From Sphingomonadales bacterium (GTDB lineage: Bacteria; Pseudomonadota; Alphaproteobacteria; Sphingomonadales; Sphingomonadaceae), in the NCBI GenBank assembly GCA_018334165.1, contig JAGXTB010000077.1:1-33837 (forward strand): a stretch of DNA of 33,837 nt. The letters are read 5' to 3'. Below, piece after piece: positions 11,780-32,620 of the stretch (position 1 is the stretch's first letter; each line of letters starts with the position of its first letter). The notes beneath the pieces were generated by a model. That model did not search any database and had not been told where the DNA came from. It was given only the letters and a program-made list of their open reading frames with translations. The position numbers were made by a program, and so were the translations under genes.

Positions 11780-11798
11780 GAAGCAAGGCTCCCTTTCC

Positions 11799-11867
11799 CC
11801 GTTCGTCCCGAGCGAAGTCGAGGGACAGCCCCATACGCGACCCCTCGACTTCGCTCGGGGCGAACGG
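11799..11867. repeat. Palindromic repeat between convergent genes (family copy 1)
   Basis: The arms, at 11799-11824 and 11841-11867, are imperfect reverse complements of about 26 bases around the core CGAGCGAAGTCGAG, with a 16-base loop. A related palindrome occurs at 31367-31430. The hairpin sits between the ends of the TipN-like gene and the convergent DUF1467 gene, so it may serve as a terminator in both directions. A repeat of this kind is common between genes in sphingomonads. Confidence 0.8.
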
Positions 11868-11904
11868 ACTTGGTTTGCCCTGAATTCGCCTAGTCGAAGT
11901 CAGC

Positions 11905-20644: not shown

Positions 20645-21262
20645 TCATAACTTCACCCCAGCGCCCACTTCCGGCGAAACATTGACCGTCGCCTCATCCG
20701 GGCGGCGGGCGTTCTGGCGGCTGATCACCTGCCCGCGCACGCCGCCGCGCTTGCGGTGGGTCAGCACGATTGCGCCGACCATGGCAACCAGCAGCAGGAA
20801 CCCGGCGACTTCGAACAGGAACAGGTACTTGCTGTAGAGCAGCAGTCCCACGGCCTCGATATTGCTCGTGTCCGCAGGAACCGCGGCGCTGCCATCGGCC
20901 ACGCCCAGCTTGATCCCGCCTTGGCCAATCGCGCCCAACCCGATCAACACTTCGGCCAGCAGCACTGCCGCCAGCAGCAGCCCCAGCGGGAAGTGCTTGA
21001 TGAAGCCTGCCCGAAGCTCGCTGAAATCGATGTTGAGCATCATCACCACGAACAGGAACAGCACCGCCACCGCGCCGACGTAAACGATCACCAGCAACAT
21101 CGCGATGAATTCGGCGCCCAGCAGCACCATCAGCCCGGCAGCGTTGAAGAAGGCCATGATCAGCCACAGCACCGAATGCACCGGATTGCGGGCCGAAATG
21201 ACCATTCCGCCCGACAGGATCGTCAGAGCCGCGAAGAGATAGAAGGACAGGGCGGTGATCAT
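20645..21262 (-). CDS. nuoJ: NADH-quinone oxidoreductase subunit J
   Basis: NuoJ is a five-helix subunit of complex I that contains the pi-bulge helix 3 important in coupling. The 205-residue product shows [54 protein letters not shown] in pieces typical of the family, including the [14 protein letters not shown] helix. A soluble C-terminal tail of about 35 residues follows the last helix. The start ATG at 21262 has only a weak ribosome site (CAGGTG). It lies 24 bases after a 146-bp terminal-inverted-repeat element that separates it from nuoI. Confidence 0.96.
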
Positions 21263-21285
21263 GCGGCACCTGCGGTTTGGATTGG

Positions 21286-21432
21286 TTCACGCGGAGGCGC
21301 GGAGACGCGGAGGGGTGGTGTCAACGGCGCAGCCGTGATGATCAAAGGACGCTGCCTTTTGCCGAACAGTCGCGTGACAGAAACAGGCCCGCGGCCGGCG
21401 CAAGTCCTCCGCGTCTCCGCGTCTCCGCGTGA
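21286..21432 (-). mobile_element. Gene-less terminal-inverted-repeat element between nuoI and nuoJ
   Basis: The core runs 21287-21432 (146 bases). Both ends carry TC followed by three copies of ACGCGGAG (one with a G for A), in inverted orientation. Read on the minus strand it shares exact ends, length and inner blocks with the element at 27755-27900. After the repeat both have a GGA-TTG-GC-GGCCGC-GGCC block with a few substitutions. Both also have a small hairpin CGGCTGCGCCG (here) or CGGCTTCGCCG (there), each 11 bases from the right repeat. The middle differs. No gene is encoded. It looks like a non-autonomous relative of the gene-bearing element at 30275-30717. Confidence 0.8.
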
Positions 21433-21493
21433 GAATGCGCATCCGCGTGAGCCAAATTCTCTCAAAGAACCCCGTCCAGTCATCACGCGGCCC

Positions 21494-21979
21494 CTATCGA
21501 TACGGCGCATCGGCTTCAAGGTTCGCGGCGATGGCCCGCTCCCACTTGTCCCCGTTCGCCAGCAGTTTGGCCTTGTCGTAGAGCAGCTCTTCGCGCGTTT
21601 CGGTGGCGTATTCGAAGTTCGGCCCTTCGACGATCGCATCAACCGGGCAGGCTTCCTGGCAGAAGCCGCAGAAGATGCATTTGGTCATGTCGATGTCATA
21701 GCGCGTGGTGCGGCGGCTGCCGTCGTCGCGCGGTTCGGCTTCGATGGTGATCGCCTGCGCCGGGCAGACCGCTTCGCACAGCTTGCAGGCAATGCAGCGC
21801 TCCTCGCCATTGGCATAGCGCCGCAGCGCATGCTCGCCGCGAAAGCGCGGCGACAGCGGGTTCTTCTCAAACGGATAGTTGATCGTCGCCTTGGGCCTGA
21901 AGAAATACCGCAGGGTCAGGAGGTGCGCTTTCACGAACTCCCACAGGGTGAACGATTTGATGAGTTGGGCGGCGGTCAT
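21494..21979 (-). CDS. nuoI: NADH-quinone oxidoreductase subunit I
   Basis: NuoI holds iron-sulfur clusters N6a and N6b, which pass electrons to N2 in the peripheral arm of complex I. The 161-residue product has two classical 4Fe-4S motifs: [16 protein letters not shown] and [16 protein letters not shown]. The N-terminal amphipathic part and the [18 protein letters not shown] lead-in are standard. Its ATG overlaps the stop of the small secreted-protein gene upstream (ATGA). Downstream, 231 bases, mostly a terminal-inverted-repeat element, separate it from nuoJ. Confidence 0.97.
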
Positions 21980-22410
21980 TGAGGCTTTGCCCCTCCGGTG
22001 CTTGTGTCTTGCTTTACGCAGTCTGCTTGACCTGATTCATCTCCAAACTCGGTTCTGCCCGTGGAGTATTTCGTCTGCCAATTAAGCTTGAAGCTGCGCG
22101 GCTCAACTGCAGGTTTCAAAGTCATCGTGCCAAAGACGTTGAGCCCACGCCATACTTCTGAGTATGAAAATTCGACGGCATCTCCAGCGGCTATGCCTTT
22201 CCAGTGTGTGTCAATATCCGGCCCAGGTCGCGGTGTGCCAAATGCGTGAATGCTCACGTTTGAAATGCTCTTTCCGTGAACCTGGTACGTTAGAGAAAAC
22301 CCCAATTTGGTCTTTGGATTGAAGCAGTAATAGGCCGCATCTGGCACTGCTGCCGATGCAGGAGCGCCAACGAGGCAGAAGGCCAATGCAGCGATTGCAG
22401 GACGAATCAT
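21976..22410 (-). CDS. Small secreted protein of unknown function, inserted between nuoH and nuoI
   Basis: The 144-residue protein has a clear signal peptide: [20 protein letters not shown], with cleavage expected after ASA. The mature part is beta-rich in appearance ([32 protein letters not shown]) and has two cysteines, at about residues 29 (AYYCF) and 133 (QADCVK), that could form a disulfide in the periplasm. I do not recognise a family. The ATG overlaps the nuoH stop by four bases (ATGA), and its own stop overlaps the nuoI ATG the same way, so it is translationally coupled at both ends. Base composition looks less GC-rich than nuoH and nuoI, suggesting acquisition. A longer frame to 22434 is open but lacks the signal-peptide start. 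Confidence 0.8.
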
Positions 22411-23447
22411 GCCCCCTGCCTCCACATCAGCCAACCGCTCACCACGCAGACGAACAGCAGGCTCACCGGCAGGAACACCTTCCAGCCCAGGCGCATCAGC
22501 TGGTCATAACGATAGCGCGGGACGGTCGCTTTGACCCATGAGAAGATGAAGAAGAACAGGAAGATCTTGGCGAACAGCCACAGCCAGCCCGGGATCCAGT
22601 AAAGCGGCGCCCACTCGATTGGGGGTAGCCATCCGCCCCAGAACAGCGTCGCGTTGAGCGCGCACATCAGCAGGACGTTGGCATATTCGCCCAGCCAGTA
22701 GAGCGCGAAGCTCATCGAGCTATATTCGGTCTGGTACCCGGCGACGAGCTCGCTTTCGGCCTCGGTCAGGTCGAACGGCGCGCGCTGGGTTTCAGCCATG
22801 CCGCTGATCAGGAACATCACCGCCATCGGGAACAGCAGCGGGTTGAAGCCATAGCCGTTGAGCAGGCCGAACATATGCTCGCGCTGGCCCAGCACGATGC
22901 CGTTCATGTTGAAGGTGCCGGCGTACATCACCACGCAGATCAGGATGAACCCGATGGACACTTCATAGGAAATCATCTGCGCGCTGGCGCGCATTGCCGA
23001 GAAGAACGGGTACTTCGAATTCGACGACCAGCCCGCGATGATCGTGCCGTAAACCCCCAGCGACGAGATCGCGAGGATATAGAGCAGCCCGACATTGATA
23101 TCGGCCAGGATCGCCCGGCCGTTGAACGGGATCACCGCCCAGGCCATCAGTGCGACGGTAAAGGTGATAATCGGCGCAAGCAGGAACAACACTTTGTTCG
23201 ACGCGCTGGGGACGATGGTTTCCTGCAGGAATACCTTCAGGCCGTCTGCGAAGGACTGGAGCAGCCCCCACGGCCCCACCACATTCGGCCCCCGGCGCAG
23301 CGCCATCGCCGCCCAGATCTTGCGGTCGACGTAAATGATCATCGCCACGCTGAGCATCAGCGGCAGGGCGATGAGCAGGATGCCGGAGATCGTGGCGATG
23401 AACCACGACCATTCGTAGGGCAGCCATTGTTGGAAAAACTCGGTCAT
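22407..23447 (-). CDS. nuoH: NADH-quinone oxidoreductase subunit H
   Basis: NuoH is the membrane subunit that docks the peripheral arm and forms most of the quinone channel of complex I. The 346-residue product has eight hydrophobic helices. Motifs include ERKIWAAMALRRGPNVVGPWGLLQSFADGLKVF (here read with VDRKIW), GWSSNSKYPFFSAMRASAQMISYEVSIG, and the acidic loop AETQRAPFDLTEAESELVAGYQTEYSSM. Its ATG overlaps the stop of the small membrane-protein gene upstream, and its stop overlaps the start of the secreted-protein gene downstream. Both overlaps are four bases. Confidence 0.97.
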   Translation of the reverse strand: MTEFFQQWLPYEWSWFIATISGILLIALPLMLSVAMIIYVDRKIWAAMALRRGPNVVGPWGLLQSFADGLKVFLQETIVPSASNKVLFLLAPIITFTVALMAWAVIPFNGRAILADINVGLLYILAISSLGVYGTIIAGWSSNSKYPFFSAMRASAQMISYEVSIGFILICVVMYAGTFNMNGIVLGQREHMFGLLNGYGFNPLLFPMAVMFLISGMAETQRAPFDLTEAESELVAGYQTEYSSMSFALYWLGEYANVLLMCALNATLFWGGWLPPIEWAPLYWIPGWLWLFAKIFLFFFIFSWVKATVPRYRYDQLMRLGWKVFLPVSLLFVCVVSGWLMWRQGA

Positions 23448-23713
23448 TCTTTGCCCACCCGGTCATGAATGGCGATCAGAACCTGGATAACTGCCCCATT
23501 GGCAACGAGGTACAGCGCCTCCGTCAGCGCGTAGTAGAGCGCTTTGGATTTGGTGACCTGCGGCATTGCCCCAGTCGTTTCATCCAACCCGGAGGTTTGG
23601 TACAGAATACCCATCTCGACAAAGGCATTGCCCAGGCTCCAGACGAACATCACTGCGGCAGCGATATAGAATACCCGCGGCAAACGCCTCACCAGATCAC
23701 CGAGACCCGTCAT
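23444..23713 (-). CDS. Small two-helix membrane protein inserted between nuoG and nuoH
   Basis: The 89-residue protein has one hydrophobic helix at about residues 14-34 (VFYIAAAVMFVWSLGNAFVEM), a polar loop (YQTSGLDETTGAMPQVTKSK) and a second helix at about 60-82 (ALTEALYLVANGAVIQVLIAI). I do not recognise a named family. The ATG at 23713 overlaps the nuoG stop (ATGA), and the stop overlaps the nuoH ATG (ATGA), so it is inserted without disturbing either neighbour. The location between a peripheral-arm and a membrane-arm gene allows a role as an accessory or assembly factor of complex I. Passive carriage is equally possible. Confidence 0.8.
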   Translation of the reverse strand: MTGLGDLVRRLPRVFYIAAAVMFVWSLGNAFVEMGILYQTSGLDETTGAMPQVTKSKALYYALTEALYLVANGAVIQVLIAIHDRVGKE

Positions 23714-25713
23714 TCCGCCGCCTCCGCGAAAGTCTCGCCGTGCAGCAGCTCGGCCGAGCAGCGCTGCATAGTCTCGCTGGCGCGGGCGATCGGGTTGGTG
23801 AGGTAGAAGTCCTTGATCGGATAGGCTTCGATCGTGCCCTTGGCCCCGGCCTTGCCTTTCGGCAGCGCACCGCAATCCGCAAGACCCTCGCGGCCCAGCG
23901 CCGGGACGGCCTTGGCCATCGCGGTGCGCAGCGCATCGAAGCTGTCGAACCCGACCGAAACGCCCAGCGCATCGGCCATGGCGCGCAGGATCGTCCAGTC
24001 CTCGCGCGCGTCGCCGGGAGCAAAGACGGCTTTGTCGGCCCACTGCACCCGGCCTTCGGTGTTGACGTAAGTGCCCGGCTTCTCGCTGAAAGCGGCGGCG
24101 GGCAGGATCACATCGGCGGCATGCGCGCCCTTGTCACCGTGGTGGCTGATGTAGACGATCATTGAACCTGCGAACTTGGTGTAATCCACCTCGTCCGCGC
24201 CCAGCGAAATCAGCATCTTGGGCTTGGCCTTGACCAGATCGGCAATGCCGCCCTTCTGAGCATAGCCCAGCATCAGCCCGCCCATGCGGCTCGCCGCCAT
24301 GTGGAGCACGTTGAAGCCGTTCCAGCCATCACGGACCAGCTTGTACTTGGTCGCCAGCGCCAGGCAGGCATCCAGCGCGCCCTTGCCCAGCCCTGCCCCG
24401 CCAAGGATCAGCGCAGGCCGCGCCGCGCCCTTGAGCGCGGCTTCGGCTTCGGCCGGAAGCTTGTCGATCACCGACAGGTCGGTACCGAGGAAGGTCGTCG
24501 GCACGGTGGTTTCCCACTCCGGCCCGACCACGAACAGTTTGGCCCCGCGCTTGGCCGCCTTGCGCAAGCGGCTCTGCACCAAGGGGGCTTCCCAGCGAAC
24601 ATGGCTGCCGACGATCAGGATCGCGTCAGCCTCTTCGATGCCCGCAAGGCCAGAATTGAAGTTCACCGCAGCGAGGTTCGAGCAATCGTAGTCCAGCCCG
24701 GTCTGGCGGCCTTCAAGCAAGTCCGAACCGAGCGCCCCGGCCAAGGCCTTAGCCGCAAACATGGTTTCGCAATCAACCATGTCGCCCGCGACCACCGCAA
24801 CCGACTTGCCGGGGTTGATCTTGGCGACAGCGGCAAAGGCTTCTTCCCAGGTCGCCGCAACCAGCTTGCCGTCACGGCGTAGCCAGGGCTTGTCGAGCCG
24901 GCGGCGGGTCAGGCCATCGACCTGGTAGCGCGCCTTGTCAGAGATCCACTCCTCGTTCACGTCATCGTTGACGCGCGGCAGGATCCGCAGCACTTCGCGC
25001 CCGCGGCTGTCGAGGCGGATGTTGGCCCCGCAAGCGTCCGACACGTCGATCGACAGCGTCTTCTTGAGCTCCCACGGCCGCGCCTCGAAAGCATAGGGCC
25101 GCGAAGTCAGCGCGCCGACCGGGCAGAGGTCGATCACATTGGCGCTCATCTCGTGGCTCGACGCCTTTTCGAGATAGGTCGTGATCTGCATGTTCTCGCC
25201 GCGATAGAGCGCGCCGATTTCGTCCACGCCCGCCACTTCCTCGCTGAAGCGCACGCAGCGGGTGCACTGAATGCAGCGGGTCATCACGGTCTTGATCAGC
25301 GGGCCCATGTACTTCTCGGTCACCGCGCGCTTGGGCTCGTGATAGCGGCTCGCGCCCCGGCCATAGGCAACCGACTGGTCCTGCAGATCGCACTCGCCGC
25401 CCTGGTCGCAGATCGGGCAATCGAGCGGGTGGTTGATGAGCAGGAACTCCATCACCCCTTCGCGCGCCTTCTTGACCATTTCGCTGTCGGTGCGGATTTC
25501 CTGACCCTCGGCGGCCGGCAGCGCGCAGCTCGCCTGCGGCTTGGGCGGCCCGGGCTTCACTTCGACCAGACACATCCGGCAATTGCCGGCGATGCTGAGC
25601 CGCTCATGATAGCAGAAACGCGGGATTTCCTTGCCAGCCAGCTCGCACGCCTGCAGCACGGTAGCGCCCTGCGGGACTTCGAGTTCGAGGCCATCTACGG
25701 TGACTTTAGGCAT
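23710..25713 (-). CDS. nuoG: NADH-quinone oxidoreductase subunit G
   Basis: NuoG is the largest peripheral-arm subunit, carrying one 2Fe-2S and two 4Fe-4S clusters between NuoF and NuoI. The 667-residue length fits the shorter alphaproteobacterial/mitochondrial type, not the 900-residue E. coli form. The ferredoxin-like N-terminus has Cys34, Cys45, Cys48 and Cys63 (CYHERLSIAGNCRMC). Next come the N5 region NHPLDCPICDQGGECDLQD and the N4 motif CIQCTRCVRF. The molybdopterin-oxidoreductase-like C-terminal half is present without catalytic function. The ATG shares one base with the stop of the upstream secreted-protein gene (TGATG), and the stop overlaps the downstream small membrane-protein gene. 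Confidence 0.97.
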   Translation of the reverse strand: MPKVTVDGLELEVPQGATVLQACELAGKEIPRFCYHERLSIAGNCRMCLVEVKPGPPKPQASCALPAAEGQEIRTDSEMVKKAREGVMEFLLINHPLDCPICDQGGECDLQDQSVAYGRGASRYHEPKRAVTEKYMGPLIKTVMTRCIQCTRCVRFSEEVAGVDEIGALYRGENMQITTYLEKASSHEMSANVIDLCPVGALTSRPYAFEARPWELKKTLSIDVSDACGANIRLDSRGREVLRILPRVNDDVNEEWISDKARYQVDGLTRRRLDKPWLRRDGKLVAATWEEAFAAVAKINPGKSVAVVAGDMVDCETMFAAKALAGALGSDLLEGRQTGLDYDCSNLAAVNFNSGLAGIEEADAILIVGSHVRWEAPLVQSRLRKAAKRGAKLFVVGPEWETTVPTTFLGTDLSVIDKLPAEAEAALKGAARPALILGGAGLGKGALDACLALATKYKLVRDGWNGFNVLHMAASRMGGLMLGYAQKGGIADLVKAKPKMLISLGADEVDYTKFAGSMIVYISHHGDKGAHAADVILPAAAFSEKPGTYVNTEGRVQWADKAVFAPGDAREDWTILRAMADALGVSVGFDSFDALRTAMAKAVPALGREGLADCGALPKGKAGAKGTIEAYPIKDFYLTNPIARASETMQRCSAELLHGETFAEAAE

Positions 25714-26453
25714 CAGCGTGACACTCCAGCCTGGCTCTTGGCCATGGCCAATCGGTAGTAATTGATGGCAACTGTTCCACGCAGCACGTGCTTGTCAAAA
25801 GTCAGCTTTTCCCCGGCCACAAGGCAAGCGCCCAGAGCAGGAGTTGCCTTACCAATTGCGCTAGCTTCTTCTGCGCTTTCGGGTTTGGTCAGCAGCCACT
25901 CTTTCGCTGTAGCTTGATCGCGACGAACCACGCATTCCCCAAACTGTGAGAGCCAGGCTTTGGCGACACTGGCGTCCCGTGCCTTCTTCACCGTCTCCTT
26001 GGCGGCGTTCGAGCGGGCTTTGGCATAGGCTGCCTCAAAATCGCTGGCCGATTGCGGGGCGAGATGGGTTAGCGGACCAACGCTGTCGAAGCTGCCGACC
26101 TCAACAACCTTAAGGTCCTTGTTGACCAGCACGTCCGCAAGCGAAGCCCTGTAGAGATCGGGATCAACGACGATACCCTGATCTCCACGCAACATCAGTT
26201 CTTTGCATCCAAAAATGAATGCCAGCTTTTTGGAAGTGTAGATGTCAGCGAACTTGCGTTCCATGGTGTGGTTGTCAACGTTGGCCAAAACCAGTTCGCG
26301 CGCGCGGTCATGGTGGTTGCGCACCGTGCAGGTCGCGTAAGAACGCACGTCTTCGCGATACTCGGCCAGTCTGCTGCCGGACAAGCCTGCCTCTGTCTGG
26401 GAAGCGGACAGTAACCCAGCGCCAATAGCGAGAATGCTGAGAAGCAGCCTCAC
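25713..26453 (-). CDS. Secreted protein of unknown function, inserted between nuoF and nuoG
   Basis: From the GTG at 26453 the product has 246 residues. A signal peptide is evident ([23 protein letters not shown]), with cleavage likely after TEA. The mature part is helical, with four cysteines in the pieces YATCTV, IFGCKE, GECVVR and GACLVA, which could form two disulfides in the periplasm. I recognise no family. The GTG overlaps the nuoF stop (GTGA), and the stop shares one base with the nuoG ATG. The same frame continues upstream into nuoF, but only as a shadow. Base composition appears lower in GC than the flanking nuo genes. The coupled position is unusual for a secreted protein. Confidence 0.8.
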
Positions 26454-27736
26454 TCCGCCGCCTCCCGCACATTCTCGGCGATCCGCTTTTCCAGCTCGGG
26501 GCGGAAGTGGCGGATCAGGCCCTGGATTGGCCAGGCGGCAGCGTCGCCCAGCGCGCAGATGGTGTGGCCTTCGACTTGCTTGGTGACGTTCCACAGCATG
26601 TCGATCTCTTCCACGTCGGCATCGCCGGTGCGCAGGCGTTCCATCACGCGCCACATCCATCCGGTGCCTTCGCGGCAGGGGGTGCACTGGCCGCAGCTTT
26701 CGTGCTTGTAGAAGTAGGACAGGCGGCTGATCGCGCGGACGATGTCGGTGCTCTTGTCCATCACGATGACGGCGGCAGTGCCCAGGCCCGATCCGGCTTC
26801 CTTGCAGCCATCGAAGTCCATCGGCATATCGGGGCACATCGATCCGGGGACCAGCGGCACCGAGCTGCCACCCGGAATCACCGCCAGCAGGTTGTCCCAC
26901 CCGCCGCGAATGCCGCCGCAGTGCTTTTCGATCAGTTCGCGGAACGGGATGCTCATCGCTTCCTCGACCACGCAGGGCTTTTCGACGTGCCCGCTGATCT
27001 GGAACAGCTTGGTGCCCTTGTTGTTGTCGCGCCCGAACGAGCTGAACCACCCGGCCCCGCGCCGCATGATCGTGGGGGCGACGGCAATCGATTCAACGTT
27101 GTTGACCGTGGTCGGGCAGCCATAGAGCCCGGCGCCGGCCGGGAACGGCGGCTTGAGCCGCGGCTGGCCCTTCTTGCCTTCCAGGCTTTCGATCATCGCG
27201 GTTTCTTCGCCGCAGATATAGGCGCCCGCGCCGCGGTGGACGAAGACGTCGAAATCGTAACCGCTCTTGCAGGCGTTCTTGCCGATCAGCCCGGCATCAT
27301 AGGCTTCCTGCACGGCCGCGAACATCGTCTCGGCCTCGCGAATGTACTCGCCGCGGATGTAGATATAGGCGGCGCGCGCACCCATCGCGAAACCGGCGAC
27401 CAGCGCGCCTTCGATCAGCTTGTGCGGATCGTGGCGGATGATCTCGCGGTCCTTGCAGCTGCCGGGTTCGGATTCGTCGGCGTTGATCACCAGGAAGCTG
27501 GGCCGTGCCGGGTTCGGCTCCTTGGGCATGAACGACCACTTGAGGCCCGTCGGGAACCCCGCCCCGCCGCGCCCGCGCAGGCCGCTGGCCTTGATTTCCT
27601 CGACGATGGCATCGCGGCCCTTGGCCAGGATCGCCTTGGTATTGTCCCAATCGCCACGCTTGCGGGCAGCCGCGAGCTGCCACGGCTGGTAGCCGTAGAG
27701 GTTGGTGAAGATGCGGTCTTTATCTTGAAGGCTCAT
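26450..27736 (-). CDS. nuoF: NADH-quinone oxidoreductase subunit F
   Basis: NuoF binds NADH and FMN and holds cluster N3, the electron entry point of complex I. The 428-residue product has the FMN/NADH-binding region [20 protein letters not shown], the glycine-rich [22 protein letters not shown] in pieces, and the cluster motif [12 protein letters not shown] with a distant fourth Cys ([12 protein letters not shown]). An excellent GGGAGG ribosome site lies 6 bases before the ATG. It immediately adjoins the outer arm of the 146-bp inverted-repeat element lying between nuoE and nuoF. Confidence 0.97.
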
Positions 27737-27753
27737 GCTGCGCCTCCCATTGA

Positions 27754-27900
27754 TTCACGCGGAGACGCGGAGACGCGGAGGAGTTGTGCTGGCCGCAGGC
27801 CATTCAAATCTGCGCAAGTCTCCAGTTTGAACATGCGTTGCAGGAACAGGGCGGCTTCGCCGCGCGCGCTACTCCTCCGCGTCTCCGCGCCTCCGCGTGA
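27754..27900 (+). mobile_element. Gene-less terminal-inverted-repeat element between nuoE and nuoF
   Basis: The core runs 27755-27900 (146 bases), bounded by inverted copies of TC plus three ACGCGGAG units. The right copy has one G for A, exactly as in the 21287-21432 element, which lies in the opposite orientation. Outside the core, CCATTGATT (27747-27755) and AATCAATGG (27903-27911) extend the inverted symmetry, which is not the direct repeat expected of a simple target duplication. Inside are a GGCCGCAGGCC block and a CGGCTTCGCCG mini-hairpin. No gene is encoded. In the operon transcript it would form a long stem just ahead of the nuoF ribosome site. Confidence 0.82.
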
Positions 27901-27920
27901 GAAATCAATGGCGAAACCCA

Positions 27921-28589
27921 TCACCAGTCCCCCCGGTAATCGTGGTTGGCCTTGACCATCTCTTTGAGCGTGCTGGGCCCGCCCAGCGGCTCGACCGTGT
28001 GGCGACCCGGCTCCTGCGTCCCGGCCTTGGGGCTCTTGCCCGAGGCCAGCGCGTCGAGCACGGTATCGAGCCGGTCGGCGGTCAGGTCTTCGTAGTTGTC
28101 GTCGTTGATCTGGACCATCGGGGCCGAGGCGCAGTTGCCCATGCATTCGACCTCGGTCAGCGTCCACATCCCGTCGGCGGAGGTATGCCCCTTGGCCATG
28201 CCGCGCTTCTTACAGGCGGCCATGATGTCGTCAGACCCGCGCAGCATGCACGGCGTGGTGCCGCAGACCTGGACGTGGAACCTGCCCACCGGAACCAGAT
28301 TGTACATGGTATAAAAGCTCGCGACCTCGACCACGCGGATCACCGGCATGTCGAGCTGCGCCGCGACAAATTCCATCACCGGGATCGGCAACCAGCCCTG
28401 CGTCTGCGTTTCCGCCCCAACCTGGCGCTGGGCCAGATCGAGCAGCGGCATCACCGCCGAGCGCTGACGCCCGGCCGGATAGCGTGCGACAATCGCCTTG
28501 GCCTGCTTGGCGTTGTCCTTGGACCACGCAAAAGCACCCCACCGTGCGCGCAGTTCGGGGGTATCGGGTTCGAGATGACGGTCAGCCAT
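27921..28589 (-). CDS. nuoE: NADH-quinone oxidoreductase subunit E
   Basis: NuoE carries the 2Fe-2S cluster N1a next to the flavin subunit NuoF. The 222-residue product is thioredoxin-fold, with the cluster ligands in VQVCGTTPCMLRG and VECMGNCASAPMVQIN. The helical N-terminus (RQRSAVMPLLDLAQRQVG) and VVEVASFYTMYN are standard. A C-terminal extension of about 40 residues (KSPKAGTQEPGRHTVEPLGG) is common in Alphaproteobacteria. The ATG at 28589 begins exactly at the conserved N-terminus and shares bases with the stop of the upstream small gene (TAATG). A longer frame to 28721 is only a shadow of that gene. Confidence 0.97.
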   Translation of the reverse strand: MADRHLEPDTPELRARWGAFAWSKDNAKQAKAIVARYPAGRQRSAVMPLLDLAQRQVGAETQTQGWLPIPVMEFVAAQLDMPVIRVVEVASFYTMYNLVPVGRFHVQVCGTTPCMLRGSDDIMAACKKRGMAKGHTSADGMWTLTEVECMGNCASAPMVQINDDNYEDLTADRLDTVLDALASGKSPKAGTQEPGRHTVEPLGGPSTLKEMVKANHDYRGDW

Positions 28590-29041
28590 TAGTCGTCTTT
28601 CACCACCTGATTGATGTTTATGCGTGGCGGTGCGCCCAACCGGAAGTCGATCTTCGAAATCCGAGCGGAATCGCCTTCGACAAGCAAATAATCTACACCA
28701 GCTTCTTTGCCACCGACGCAACGCATGCGCATTGTGACTCTGTCGGAAGAAACGTTGTCAATTCCCGAGATCTGACACTTGCTCAAAAACAATTGTGTAC
28801 TCTTGACAGTGAGGCCACGGACCTTCGGCCCTTCATCGAGATCTTCTAGTCCTTGAACTGTAGCACCTTCGGCAATCACGTTATTAAATCTGACTTCATC
28901 GCCGTTGAGCGCGCTAAAGTTAAGTCGATTTACAACATTAAGTGCAACAATGTTCCAGCCGTTGACACTTTGATTCACAGGCCCAGCGTGTGCGCCGACC
29001 GCAGCCAAGGTAAGAGCAGCAACACCAATAGGTCGTCTCAC
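28589..29041 (-). CDS. Small secreted protein of unknown function, inserted between nuoD and nuoE
   Basis: The 150-residue protein starts with GTG at 29041 and has a signal peptide ([18 protein letters not shown]), with cleavage likely after AHA. The mature part has two cysteines, in SKCQISG and MRCVGG, spaced for a possible disulfide, and many Val/Asn residues suggesting a beta-rich fold. No family recognised. It starts within the nuoD stop (GTGA) and its TAA overlaps the nuoE ATG. It is visibly the most AT-rich gene of the window, with runs such as AACAACATTAAG-like codon use foreign to the nuo genes. That suggests horizontal acquisition followed by exact integration into the operon. Confidence 0.78.
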
Positions 29042-30249
29042 CGGTCACACTCCCCAAACACCACATCGATCGCGCCCAGAATGGCGGTCGCATCGGGCAG
29101 CATGTGGCCCTTGCACATGAAGTCCATCGCCTGAAGGTGGCTGAAAGCGGTCGGACGTATCTTGCAGCGATAGGGCTTGTTGGTGCCGTCGGAGACCAGA
29201 TAAACCCCGAATTCACCCTTGGGGCTTTCGGTCGCGACGTAAACTTCACCGGCGGGGACGTGGAAGCCTTCGGTGTAGAGCTTGAAGTGGTGGATCAGTG
29301 ATTCCATCGACTGCTTCATCTCGGCCCGCTTGGGGGGGGAGACCTTGCCGTCGGTGCTGGCGACTGGCCCTGTGGGCATGTCGCGCAGGCACTGCTTCAT
29401 GATCCGGGCCGACTGGCGCACTTCCTCGACGCGGACCATGAAGCGGTCATAGCAGTCCGAGCGGGTGCCGACCGGAATATCGAATTCCACGCGGTCGTAT
29501 ACGTCGTAGGGCTGGCTCTTGCGCAGATCCCACGGAATACCGGCAGCGCGGATCATCGGGCCGGAGAAGCCCCAGGCCAGCGCGTCTTCCTTGGAGACCA
29601 GCGCGATATCGACATTGCGCTGCTTGAAGATGCGGTTGTCGACCACCAGGCTCATCGCGTCTTCGAACAGGCGCGGCAGGCGGTCGTCGAGCCAGACGCC
29701 CAAATCGTCGAGCAAGGCTTGCGGCACGTCCTGGTGGACCCCGCCGGGGCGGAACCAGGCCGAGTGCATGCGGGCGCCCGAAGCGCGCTCGAAGAAGTTG
29801 AGGCAATCCTCGCGGATTTCGAACAGCCACAGGTTCGGCGTCATCGCGCCGACGTCCATCATGTGCGACCCCATGTTGAGCATGTGGTTGCAGATCCGGG
29901 TCAGCTCGGCGAACAGCACGCGCAGGTATTGCCCGCGCAGCGGCACTTCCAAGTTGAGCAGCTTTTCGATCGCCAGCACATAGGAGTGCTCCATCGCCAG
30001 CGGCGAGCAATAGTCGAGCCGGTCGAAGTACGGCAGCGCCTGCAGGTAGGTCTTGTGCTCGATCAGCTTTTCGGTGCCGCGGTGGAGGAGGCCTACGTGG
30101 CAATCGACGCGTTCGATATTCTCGCCATCGAGCTCCAGCACCATCCGCAGCACACCGTGCGCGGCCGGGTGCTGGGGGCCGAAATTGATCGTGTAATTGG
30201 TGATGACTTCATCGCCAGTGGTGGGCGATTCTTCGAGCTGGAAGGTCAT
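29038..30249 (-). CDS. nuoD: NADH-quinone oxidoreductase subunit D
   Basis: NuoD is the 49-kDa-type subunit that, with NuoB, forms the quinone-reducing site near cluster N2. The 403-residue length is usual for unfused NuoD. Motifs include [22 protein letters not shown] (with the quinone-contacting His) and [30 protein letters not shown] in pieces. The C-terminal end [41 protein letters not shown] is the conserved hydrogenase-like terminus. The ATG has a GGGAG site 9 bases upstream and overlaps the stop of the GxxExxY gene (ATGA). The stop overlaps the start of the small secreted-protein gene. Confidence 0.97.
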
Positions 30250-30686
30250 TGCACTGCTCCCGTCGAAGATTGGTTCACGCGGAGACGCGGAGACGCGGAG
30301 GGGGTATAACCGTTCACGATGCGCTGCACGTTACCCTTGATGGTTGCCCCGCCGAAGTTAATCAACAGCCCACAGGTCAAATCCATCAGCCGAAGATAGG
30401 TGTTTACCTGCTTCCCGTGGACGGGAAGCAATTTCTCAACCGACTTCAATTCAACCAGCAAAAGCGAATCCACGAGCATATCAATCCGCATTACAGACTG
30501 GATCACGTGGTGTTTGTATCTGATCTCAACCTTGCGCTGAGTCTCTACGCTATAGCCACGCTCTTGCAGCATAGCTGCAAGAATGAGCTCATAGACATTC
30601 TCAAGCAGCCCAGGACCCAAATCCCGATGCAGCTGAACCGCGCAGTCAAGCACGTCGCCAGAGATTTCTTCCAAATCTCTCACCAC
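30246..30686 (-). CDS. GxxExxY protein, PD-(D/E)XK nuclease fold, carried in the inverted-repeat element
   Basis: With GTG at 30686 the product has 146 residues. The family motif G26-x-x-E29-x-x-Y32 ([10 protein letters not shown]) is exact. The nuclease-like signature follows: Asp69 (MRIDM), Glu79-x-Lys81 (VELKS), and Gln93-Tyr97-Leu98 (KQVNTYL). This is the PDDEXK_3 family (PF13366), whose cellular role is not established. GGAG from the element's right terminal repeat sits 5 bases before the GTG and can act as ribosome site. Residues 129-137 (PSASPRLRV) are encoded by the left terminal repeat. The TGA stop overlaps the nuoD ATG. The frame is open to 30752 through the repeat, but that would overlap nuoC. 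Active-site residues are intact, so it is probably functional. Confidence 0.88.
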
Positions 30687-30717
30687 AAATTCTCCGCGTC
30701 TCCGCGTCTCCGCGTGA
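30274..30717 (-). mobile_element. Terminal-inverted-repeat element carrying a GxxExxY gene, between nuoC and nuoD
   Basis: The core runs 30275-30717 (443 bases). Its ends are inverted copies of TC plus three ACGCGGAG units, at 30274-30302 and 30691-30717. The same ends bound two gene-less 146-bp elements elsewhere in this operon. The interior is less GC-rich than the nuo genes and is almost filled by the GxxExxY coding sequence. Outside the ends, GGTTC (left) and GGAACC (right) keep the inverted symmetry. There is no transposase of a known family. The element lies 5 bases beyond the nuoC stop region, so nuoC is intact. Confidence 0.8.
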
Positions 30718-30726
30718 GGAACCGGG

Positions 30727-31353
30727 TCATGCTCCTCCCTCCGCCTTCTCATCCCCAGGCAGCACGTATTCGGCGCCTTCCCACGGGCTCATGAAATCGA
30801 ACTGGCGCAGGTCTTGCGCCAGCTTGACCGGTTCATAGACCACGCGCGCTTCCTCGGGGCTGTAGCGCAGCTCGACATAGCCGGTCAGCGGGAAGTCCTT
30901 GCGGAATGGGTGGCCTTCAAAGCCATAGTCGGTGAGGATCCGGCGCAGGTCCGGGTTGCCGTCGAAGATCACCCCATACATGTCGAACACCTCGCGTTCG
31001 AGCCAGCCGGCGTTGGGCCACAGGCTAGTCACGCTGGGCACCGGACTATCCTCGGCGGCATTGACCTTGACCAGCAGGCGATGGTTCTTCGTCACGCTGA
31101 GCAGCATGTAAACCACTTCGAAGCGTTCGGCCCGGTCGGGGTAATCGACCCCGGCCATTTCCATCAGCTGCTGGTATTGGTGCTCGTCGCGCAAGGTGCG
31201 CAGCGCACCCACGATGGCATCGCGCGCGACGGTCAGCACCACTTCGCCGTGGGCTTCTTGCGCGGAGATCAACGACTTGCCGAGCGCCTTGCTGAGCGCA
31301 GCGACAACGCCTTCGTTCGAGGCGGTGCGCGGGGCGGAGTGGACTACGGCCAT
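30727..31353 (-). CDS. nuoC: NADH-quinone oxidoreductase subunit C
   Basis: NuoC is the 30-kDa-type subunit of the peripheral arm, contacting NuoD. From the ATG at 31353 (MAVVHSAPR) the product has 208 residues. Conserved blocks are YQQLMEMAGVDYPDRAERFEVVYMLLS, SLWPNAGWLEREVFDMYGVIFDGNPDLRRILTDYGFEGHPFRKDFPLTGYVELRY in pieces, and the C-terminal QFDFMSPWEG. An upstream in-frame ATG at 31401 lies inside the palindromic repeat and was rejected. nuoC and nuoD are separate genes here, not fused. The inverted-repeat element with the GxxExxY gene follows directly. Confidence 0.96.
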   Translation of the reverse strand: MAVVHSAPRTASNEGVVAALSKALGKSLISAQEAHGEVVLTVARDAIVGALRTLRDEHQYQQLMEMAGVDYPDRAERFEVVYMLLSVTKNHRLLVKVNAAEDSPVPSVTSLWPNAGWLEREVFDMYGVIFDGNPDLRRILTDYGFEGHPFRKDFPLTGYVELRYSPEEARVVYEPVKLAQDLRQFDFMSPWEGAEYVLPGDEKAEGGA

Positions 31354-31366
31354 TAGATACCTACCT

Positions 31367-31430
31367 CCGTTCGCATCGAGCGAAGTCGAGATGCCGCGCA
31401 CAGTGTCTCGACTTCGCTCGACACGAACGG
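31367..31430. repeat. Palindromic repeat between nuoB and nuoC (family copy 2)
   Basis: The inverted arms, at 31367-31391 and 31405-31430, share the core CGAGCGAAGTCGAG and the outer CCGTTCG/CGAACGG with the copy at 11799-11867. They form an imperfect stem of about 24 bp with a short loop. It fills most of the 103-base nuoB-nuoC gap. Within an operon it cannot be a complete terminator. It could stabilise or process the transcript. Confidence 0.8.
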
Positions 31431-31456
31431 GTGTGGTTTGTGGATCAGTTCGCAGC

Positions 31457-32011
31457 TCATCGCTCGACCGTCCCGACCCGGCGGATCTTGCGCTGGAGCT
31501 GCATCACGCCATACATCAGCGCCTCGGCAGTCGGCGGGCAGCCGGGGACGTAGATATCGACCGGAACGATCCGGTCACACCCGCGCACCACCGAATAGCT
31601 GTAGTGGTAATAGCCGCCGCCATTGGCGCAGCTGCCCATCGAGATGACGTATTTCGGCTCCGACATCTGGTCGTAAACCTTGCGCAGCGCCGGGGCCATC
31701 TTGTTGCACAGCGTGCCCGCGACGATCATCACGTCCGATTGGCGTGGGGACGCGCGCGGGGCGAAGCCGAAGCGTTCCATATCGTAGCGCGGCATGTTGA
31801 CATGGATCATCTCGACCGCGCAGCAGGCGAGGCCAAAGGTCATCCACCACAGCGAGCCGGTGCGGGCCCACTGGAACAGGTCCTCGGTGTTGGTGACCAG
31901 GAAGCCCTTGTCACCCAACTCACCATTGAGGTCATTGAAGAACGCCGCGTCAGGCGCGGTAACCGGGCCGTTCCACAGCGGGCGGCCAAGGGCATCAACC
32001 GGAACACTCAT
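31457..32011 (-). CDS. nuoB: NADH-quinone oxidoreductase subunit B
   Basis: NuoB ligates cluster N2, the terminal iron-sulfur cluster that reduces quinone. The 184-residue product contains the ligand cysteines in [10 protein letters not shown] (two adjacent Cys), MGSCANGG and [14 protein letters not shown], and the usual [20 protein letters not shown] block. The ATG at 32011 overlaps the nuoA stop (ATGA) and begins the normal N-terminus MSVPVDALG. An upstream frame to 32092 is a shadow of nuoA. It is followed by a palindromic repeat before nuoC. Confidence 0.97.
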
Positions 32012-32515: not shown

Positions 32516-32620
32516 CCCCTCCCGCTTGCGGGAGGGGTCGGGGGTGGGTCAGTCGGCCACCCGGAACCTTGCGATTTGATTCACTTGCCCACCCCTAGCC
32601 CCTCCCGCAAGCGGGAGGGG
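32516..32620. repeat. Nested palindrome upstream of nuoA, probable terminator of the aldehyde dehydrogenase gene
   Basis: Two perfect hairpins, CCCCTCCCGC-TT-GCGGGAGGGG (32516-32537) and CCCCTCCCGC-AA-GCGGGAGGGG (32599-32620), are themselves inverted with respect to each other. The symmetry extends to GGGGTGGGT (left) and GCCCACCCC (right). The right hairpin begins 5 bases past the stop of the dehydrogenase gene on the minus strand, fitting a terminator, though no strong U-run follows. Similar palindromes are common between sphingomonad genes, so this is also a dispersed-repeat candidate. Confidence 0.8.

Follow-up and report, generated by a model that had tools for sequence, protein, structure and literature searches.

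The intervening sequences (IVSs) of rRNA exist in gene-less form as well, and the palindromic elements of Rickettsia are repeats able to stay open in reading frames; for the latter we know of no pairing of ends and gene with a nuclease. In PMC4990558 the IVSs of 23S rRNA are described as having taken the place of small helix loops and their origin is called unclear; the Coxiella IVS is given there as 428-444 nt long, with a 28-bp terminal stem, heptamer direct repeats and one small ORF (S23p). REPIN/RAYT systems and TIRtrons are presented in PMC3733652 as a gene flanked by its own repeat family, the gene product being a tyrosine transposase. MITEs, as portrayed in a review (PMC10969869), are short and gene-less, with inverted ends, many copies and ends common to a coding element. 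The octamer elements described here resemble MITEs in all these respects, the coding element in their case bearing a gene for a predicted nuclease; they differ in that no target duplication was found and no known transposase is their partner, in occurring as concentric nests, and in that none of the coding copies checked would yield the short form by deletion of its interior. With REPIN/RAYT and TIRtrons they have in common inverted-repeat pairs in many copies and one gene between the same repeats, but the partner is a predicted PD-(D/E)XK protein rather than an HUH tyrosine transposase, and the octamer arrays finish in TTCAC, without the GTAG tag. Like the Rickettsia palindromic elements, which PMC3733652 names, they are palindromic and can stay open in reading frames. 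In open-licence PMC text, judged mostly by title, no account of an octamer element was found; passages on GxxExxY do not concern such an element, and the repeat strings of the element had no match.

The window, ie the whole stretch of 33,837 nucleotides that was analysed, is one contig (C77) of a genome of 3.09 Mb in 247 contigs. It carries a nuo operon on its minus strand, of which nuoH and a nuoI-type ferredoxin were assigned by Pfam; the remaining nuo names, taken from the reading frames, are presumptive. Two gene-less units of 146 bp lie in the operon, one between nuoI and nuoJ and a twin of equal length between nuoE and nuoF (Table 1). Both had been proposed in an initial annotation made from the sequence, and its coordinates needed correction only at the start of the first unit, which is 21287, one base from the position given. 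As that annotation also stated, the two are in opposite orientation and have identical ends: one end is TCACGCGGAGACGCGGAGACGCGGAGG and the other carries, in both units, the same off-consensus base, a G for A at the 11th position. Each arm consists of TCAC and then three octamers of the CGCGGAGA type, with TTCAC as the outermost bases, and the two arms make a stem of 26 bp. The inner blocks near each end are likewise common to both units, and the partial extra end reported just outside the nuoI/nuoJ element is present. The middle had been called diverged, which holds with a qualification. When the nuoI/nuoJ unit is reversed and set against its twin without gaps, 102/146 positions match, and in the middle 92 bases 48/92 match, so the middle is diverged yet not unrelated. 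Inverted arms of 26 bp (up to one mismatch, 60-130 bp apart) were confined in the window to these two units, the search giving seven overlapping placements, all within them, and none in ten mononucleotide shuffles combined. A third copy lies in the nuoC/nuoD gap and carries a gene, which the earlier description does not mention.

Table 1. Features of the octamer elements in the window.
Feature	Start	End	Strand
Gene-less 146-bp element, nuoI/nuoJ gap	21287	21432	- (element orientation)
Variant end repeat of three 8-bp units, with G at base 11	21287	21312	+
Inner hairpin HR, minus-strand sequence ACGGCTGCGCCGT	21324	21336	-
Inner hairpin HL, minus-strand sequence GCCGCGGGC	21387	21395	-
End repeat, consensus form	21407	21432	-
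Partial extra end CCGCGTGAG, immediately outside the nuoI/nuoJ element	21443	21451	
Twin 146-bp element, nuoE/nuoF gap	27755	27900	+
Inner hairpin HL of twin, GCCGCAGGC	27792	27800	+
Inner hairpin HR of twin, GCGGCTTCGCCGC	27851	27863	+
ORF of GxxExxY / PDDEXK_3 protein, 168 aa (domain 30315-30665), spanning both end repeats	30246	30752	-
443-bp copy, nuoC/nuoD gap, same ends as the 146-bp units, enclosing the GxxExxY gene	30275	30717	-

In the genome as a whole the end sequence was found at 44 sites with up to three mismatches, and at none with a reversed-pattern control. These sites give 22 inward-facing pairs: 16 are short (130-147 bp, 13 of them 141-147 bp), five measure 181-239 bp and one is 443 bp. 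Units of the 146-bp type are present on many contigs, and the short elements are gene-less, with terminal inverted repeats and many copies. In each of the five longer copies an outer pair of octamer arms encloses an entire element of a different end subtype (inner elements CGCCAAGA, ACACGAAG, CGCGAAGG, CGCAGAGG and CCCGAAGCAC), ie concentric nests, so that their variation in length is regular. For two of these subtypes the ends agree with those of other GxxExxY copies in the genome (L055 and L056), and free short elements with these two end subtypes also occur in it. Three end sites are left unpaired, namely an outward pair in L053 and a single array in L052. The outward pair (about 697-764) has its ends 12 bp apart and lies between frames that we read as sufC-like and sufD-like; another outward pair, in a second end subtype, is at L233 1501-1548. 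These pairs, only about 10-12 bp apart, resemble the junction of two abutting elements. The lone three-octamer array (L052, about 661-686) crosses an open frame that, in our reading, resembles shikimate dehydrogenase (aroE).

When the 16 short copies are aligned, the ends are conserved, with a block GCCGCAGGC on the left and a block GCGGCTTCGCCGC on the right; the middle is divergent. Both inner blocks are also common to 14 more elements with quite different ends, hand-picked and oriented by those blocks. The 30-sequence alignment so obtained comprises all 16 short octamer elements, the five nest inner elements and nine elements of other subtypes; the 197-bp C215 element, the C53 element and elements without a fetched locus were omitted. 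Because the MAFFT columns near the left hairpin are unreliable, hairpin pairs were counted on ungapped blocks, and 2/30 left-hairpin assignments (both L038 elements) are doubtful. The closing pair of the left hairpin, which is outside the search motif, is Watson-Crick in 18/30 elements against 7.1 in shuffles (0/10,000 reach 18) and shows all four types, A-T, G-C, C-G and T-A. The next pair outward gave p = 0.06, and pairs farther out no covariation signal in the 30 elements. In the right hairpin the two outer pairs change on both sides (p about 0.001). The initial annotation had inferred a defined unit under constraint at its ends and spacing, and had set against it copies of widely varying length without common blocks. 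The copy lengths, both alignments and the covariation bear out a defined unit, constrained in its ends, length and inner blocks; simple repeat expansion is ruled out by the constant length and constant inner blocks of the copies.

The nuo sites are largely unoccupied elsewhere. The nuoI/nuoJ gap is 231 bp in the source genome and 9-28 bp in 26/29 relatives; in the remaining three (L061, L070, L075) it holds another palindrome family, and in G023 a further one. For the other two sites, sought in 20 of these 29 relatives, the nuoE/nuoF gap is 0-3 bp in 12/17 (184 bp in the source genome) and the nuoC/nuoD gap 0-5 bp in 9/17 (477 bp), the rest being longer. The copies therefore most likely arrived in the source lineage. 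The near-empty gaps, read by eye, contain no octamer sequence. The exact pre-insertion sequence was not found at nuoE/nuoF, where the relatives are too diverged and about 38 extra bases flank the element.

Both 146-bp units fold strongly on both strands, with z of -5.7 to -9.1, and this strength surely owes much to the inverted arms. Such folds, the covarying inner hairpins and the position of the window copies in nuo operon gaps would also suit a functional RNA hairpin, a processing or attenuation site of the operon that is not mobile now. We think this improbable, since the sites are near-empty in most relatives, the same unit is found on many contigs, and an Rfam scan of window positions 20900-31500 gave no family at gathering score; the scan likewise leaves no known RNA family as the identity of the units.

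The 443-bp copy lies within the 168-aa ORF, the only one found there. The ORF product matches the GxxExxY profile TIGR04256 at 120.6 bits (cut-off 35) and PF13366 (PDDEXK_3) at 119.8 bits (cut-off 22), the two E-values for the GxxExxY assignment being 1e-34 and 4.3e-35, and its closest named relatives, among the matches listed, are from Sphingomonas and other sphingomonads. The source is accordingly taken to be a sphingomonad. When the window protein was aligned with 42 others chosen from 80 contig loci (the best 80 of 563), the PD-(D/E)XK active-site residues D65, E75 and K77 were invariant in all 43 proteins, as were G22, E25 and Y28; Q89 and Y93 were nearly so. A stop in one frame of the matched span was seen in 10/80 loci (L127, L129, L136, L141, L151, L152, L156, L160, L170 and L174), reflecting either gene decay or spans joined across frames. 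A structure model (pLDDT 88.7) gave as its best match SSO0001, which we take to be a Cas4 protein (E 5.7e-4, Z 9.6, TM only 0.51), followed more weakly by MGME1, lambda-group exonucleases and Holliday-junction resolvases; no sequence relative was found in the PDB. GxxExxY is predicted to be a small PD-(D/E)XK nuclease, perhaps with a fold of the Cas4/MGME1 group.

The short elements have their ends in common with this copy, which bears a predicted nuclease. Their inner hairpins are not shared in the same way: four of the five coding copies checked (the window copy, L054, L055 and L056) have neither block, and the fifth, in G061, has one left-type block, the right block being absent. The short form therefore cannot be derived from these coding copies just by removing their interior, and the two forms may differ in their movement signals. 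The initial annotation's term MITE-like accordingly stands for the short, gene-less build, the inverted ends and the many copies; it does not stretch to the rest, as the 22 elements show no target duplication, the short form is not a deleted coding copy, and the partner is a predicted PD-(D/E)XK nuclease and not a known transposase. A copy holding the nuclease ORF alone, with its predicted active site invariant, could also be a homing-like selfish gene, the end repeats being its binding sites and the short copies dead remnants. That seems very improbable to us: the relatives' near-empty nuo gaps lack octamer sequence, and the short copies keep a conserved, covarying inner structure not expected of remnants.

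The association of the GxxExxY gene with octamer ends was followed at several levels. The source genome has five GxxExxY matches, the window copy included. Three of the other four have inverted arms scoring above all 20 of their own shuffles; the remaining one is truncated where its contig stops and has the right arm only, which is identical to that of L056. On plasmids, 4/7 loci have arms (Sphingomonas, Gemmatirosa, Bacteroides and Bernardetia) and 3/7 are without convincing ends; the phage collection gave no match. A strict end rule applied to loci from named records of many phyla (again the best 80 of 563) was passed by 61/80 and failed by 19/80. Full windows were available for 73 of these 80, and 58/73 reached a score of 14, against 1/287 control windows shifted by 900-1100 bp within the same loci. 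Relatives of this family of palindromic elements occur in many bacterial phyla. Within the genus, 26 loci are listed, with end scores of 15-39, in a table that excludes L226-L228 (partial or weak matches) and second copies without a locus; the end test covered 24/26, short contigs being excluded, and all 24 full-length loci were above 14. The best lag in GxxExxY arms was 8 in 65/83. Beside one GxxExxY element, a tmRNA gene is located about 60 bp past the right arm (L119 1974-2315). Another locus, L103, titled Arthrobacter sp. TPD3018, holds an element resembling the Sphingomonas ones, and its name may be wrong.

Among 119 genomes of the genus, the gene is present in 30 (in 29 it scores above the cut-off, in G031 below it; G062 and G096 have partial genes) and end sites are present in 45. 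The sites are present in 24/30 gene-bearing and 21/89 gene-less genomes (Fisher p = 6e-8, which ignores phylogeny), and 8/89 gene-less genomes have at least five. Six gene-bearing genomes are without a site of the tested end pattern, and in five of them the ends are of other subtypes (L210, L214, L217, L222 and L224). The ends of short elements are also closer to the gene ends of the genome that carries them than to those of other genomes (0.829 against 0.778 in eight genomes, p = 0.0012, or 0.0095 without the source genome; G087 was represented by 31/47 sites minus the gene's two). In four of the eight (G009, G095, G100 and G087) the gene ends of another genome fit the short elements better.

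No target-site duplication was detected in the 22 elements: the best match between flanks averaged 2.41 nt, against 2.44 for mismatched flanks, and 18/22 had no direct match at the exact ends. The flanks outside the ends have a weak consensus, read outward, close to ATTGGT. A hairpin-target score of the flanks was 9.25 for matched and 8.40 for mismatched flanks (p = 0.018), with L051 far the best case. As matched flanks are only slightly above mismatched ones, we make no claim of general hairpin targeting from the flanks alone.

Placement in loops was seen more directly in G007, a genome of the same genus estimated to be 100% complete, in which there are 98 end sites at two mismatches and no GxxExxY match was found. 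It also contains 285 REP sites of a CCCGCGAAGGCGGGGGCCCCGC palindrome unrelated to the octamer family, of which 30 loci (L272-L301) were examined. The loops are 23-45 nt in 22/30 and 87-101 nt in 5/30, and the latter are filled by a short octamer palindrome. The partner REP arm was not detected in 3/30, one of which holds an octamer palindrome too, so that such a palindrome lies beside or inside the loop in 6/30. In the filled loops the spacers on either side of the octamer palindrome total 19-24 nt (counted by eye), near the size of an empty loop, and these loops are the nearest to a filled/empty comparison that was obtained. Two of the short loops (L273 and L295) retain a CTCTGCGTG scrap of octamer end, perhaps footprints of loss.

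These loops can be read in another manner. GxxExxY might be a passenger captured in a loop, the palindromes themselves arising and spreading by replication slippage or template switching between hairpins, or through composite repeats on which a transposase of REPIN type acts. G007 would fit, having 98 sites without a detected gene and octamer palindromes carried by the loops of a REPIN-like family that is abundant there; so would the absence of the inner hairpins from 4/5 coding copies, and the nests, which resemble loop replacement. We nevertheless hold it to be unlikely, because octamer ends enclose the GxxExxY family in several phyla, each gene copy being matched by arms of its own, and gene and ends co-occur strongly. 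Furthermore, the two PF01797 (tyrosine transposase) loci of the source genome have no octamer-end or GTCGAG pattern within about 1.5 kb, and mobilisation by the genome's own tyrosine transposases was rejected on the same result.

The 146-bp unit belongs, as a gene-less form, to a family of small palindromic DNA elements that has been little described. The existence of the family is strongly supported, and its elements are probably mobile. Our preferred reading, to which we give a probability of about 0.6, is of a MITE/IVS-like family that settles in hairpin loops and has GxxExxY as its likely partner enzyme. The family exists in a coding form (443 bp here, with the one gene GxxExxY) and a short form with two conserved mini-hairpins in its loop. 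An element would move as a folded single strand, either of DNA or of RNA that is then copied; a nuclease of matching subtype would recognise the octamer stem and trim or cut it, and the element would be placed into the loop of another hairpin, which would give nests and no target duplication. We infer, in other words, that GxxExxY moves the elements and that hairpin loops are the target. By analogy with rRNA IVSs, one would expect the stem to serve as an RNase III-type site once it is transcribed as part of an operon, nuo for example.

Several results count against this reading. Neither a clean pre-insertion sequence nor movement was observed; eight gene-less genomes, G007 among them, have five or more sites; both inner hairpins are absent from four of the five coding copies; half of the eight genomes compared do not have the best end match at home; plasmid and contig loci in the proportions given above fail the end tests; and the TM score is low. 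The loop target is argued from the nests and one composite palindrome, which may have spread from a few events, with little support from the flanks.

Among described systems, the comparison with IVSs bears on origin as well as on form. In the 443-bp copy too, one small ORF is framed by a long terminal stem made of short direct repeats, and the placement of elements within one another and in the loops of an unrelated palindrome family recalls the IVSs, which replace hairpin loops (PMC4990558). It differs in that the window copies sit between nuo genes and not in a 23S rRNA helix, and in that GxxExxY elements have octamers and a predicted nuclease where an IVS has heptamers and a four-helix protein. 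TIGR02436, a four-helix bundle that we presume to be the S23p family, was examined in the same phylum (L302-L331): inverted arms were found at 16/27 loci (27 of the 30 being tested, short contigs excluded), with period 7 in 15/16 arms. No known RNA family reached gathering level in the 20 TIGR02436 loci scanned, and none of the 20 GxxExxY loci scanned (of 80) overlapped rRNA. We therefore regard octamer elements with GxxExxY and heptamer elements with S23p as probable sister types. More tentatively, there could be a class of minimal mobile elements that cross phyla, have a Cas4-like PD-(D/E)XK nuclease as their sole protein and enter the loops of other hairpins as folded hairpins, without target duplication, IVSs (heptamer ends, four-helix protein) being a sister type of that class; we lean somewhat against so broad a class.

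GxxExxY proteins, annotated in many genomes with a name that gives no function, are now tied to a defined DNA element. Since octamer and heptamer elements are alike in size, stem and one-gene layout, the origin and movement of rRNA IVSs become testable outside rRNA. An element with only a nuclease that settles in hairpin loops would, if real, be a new way of spreading, and the minimal class, if it exists, would offer a mechanism for the unexplained origin of IVSs. Octamer arrays that are read through may explain the odd protein ends that they encode.

Other palindromes are present in the window. A second family (CCGTTCGTnTCGAGCGAAGTCGAG type), the one that fills the nuoI/nuoJ gap of L061, L070 and L075, occurs at 11792-11877 and 31360-31440, with arms 17 and 14 nt apart. 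At 32516-32620 there is a 38-bp inverted repeat built on CCCCTCCCGCTTGCGGGAGGGG, both arms of which have a core that forms a hairpin of its own.
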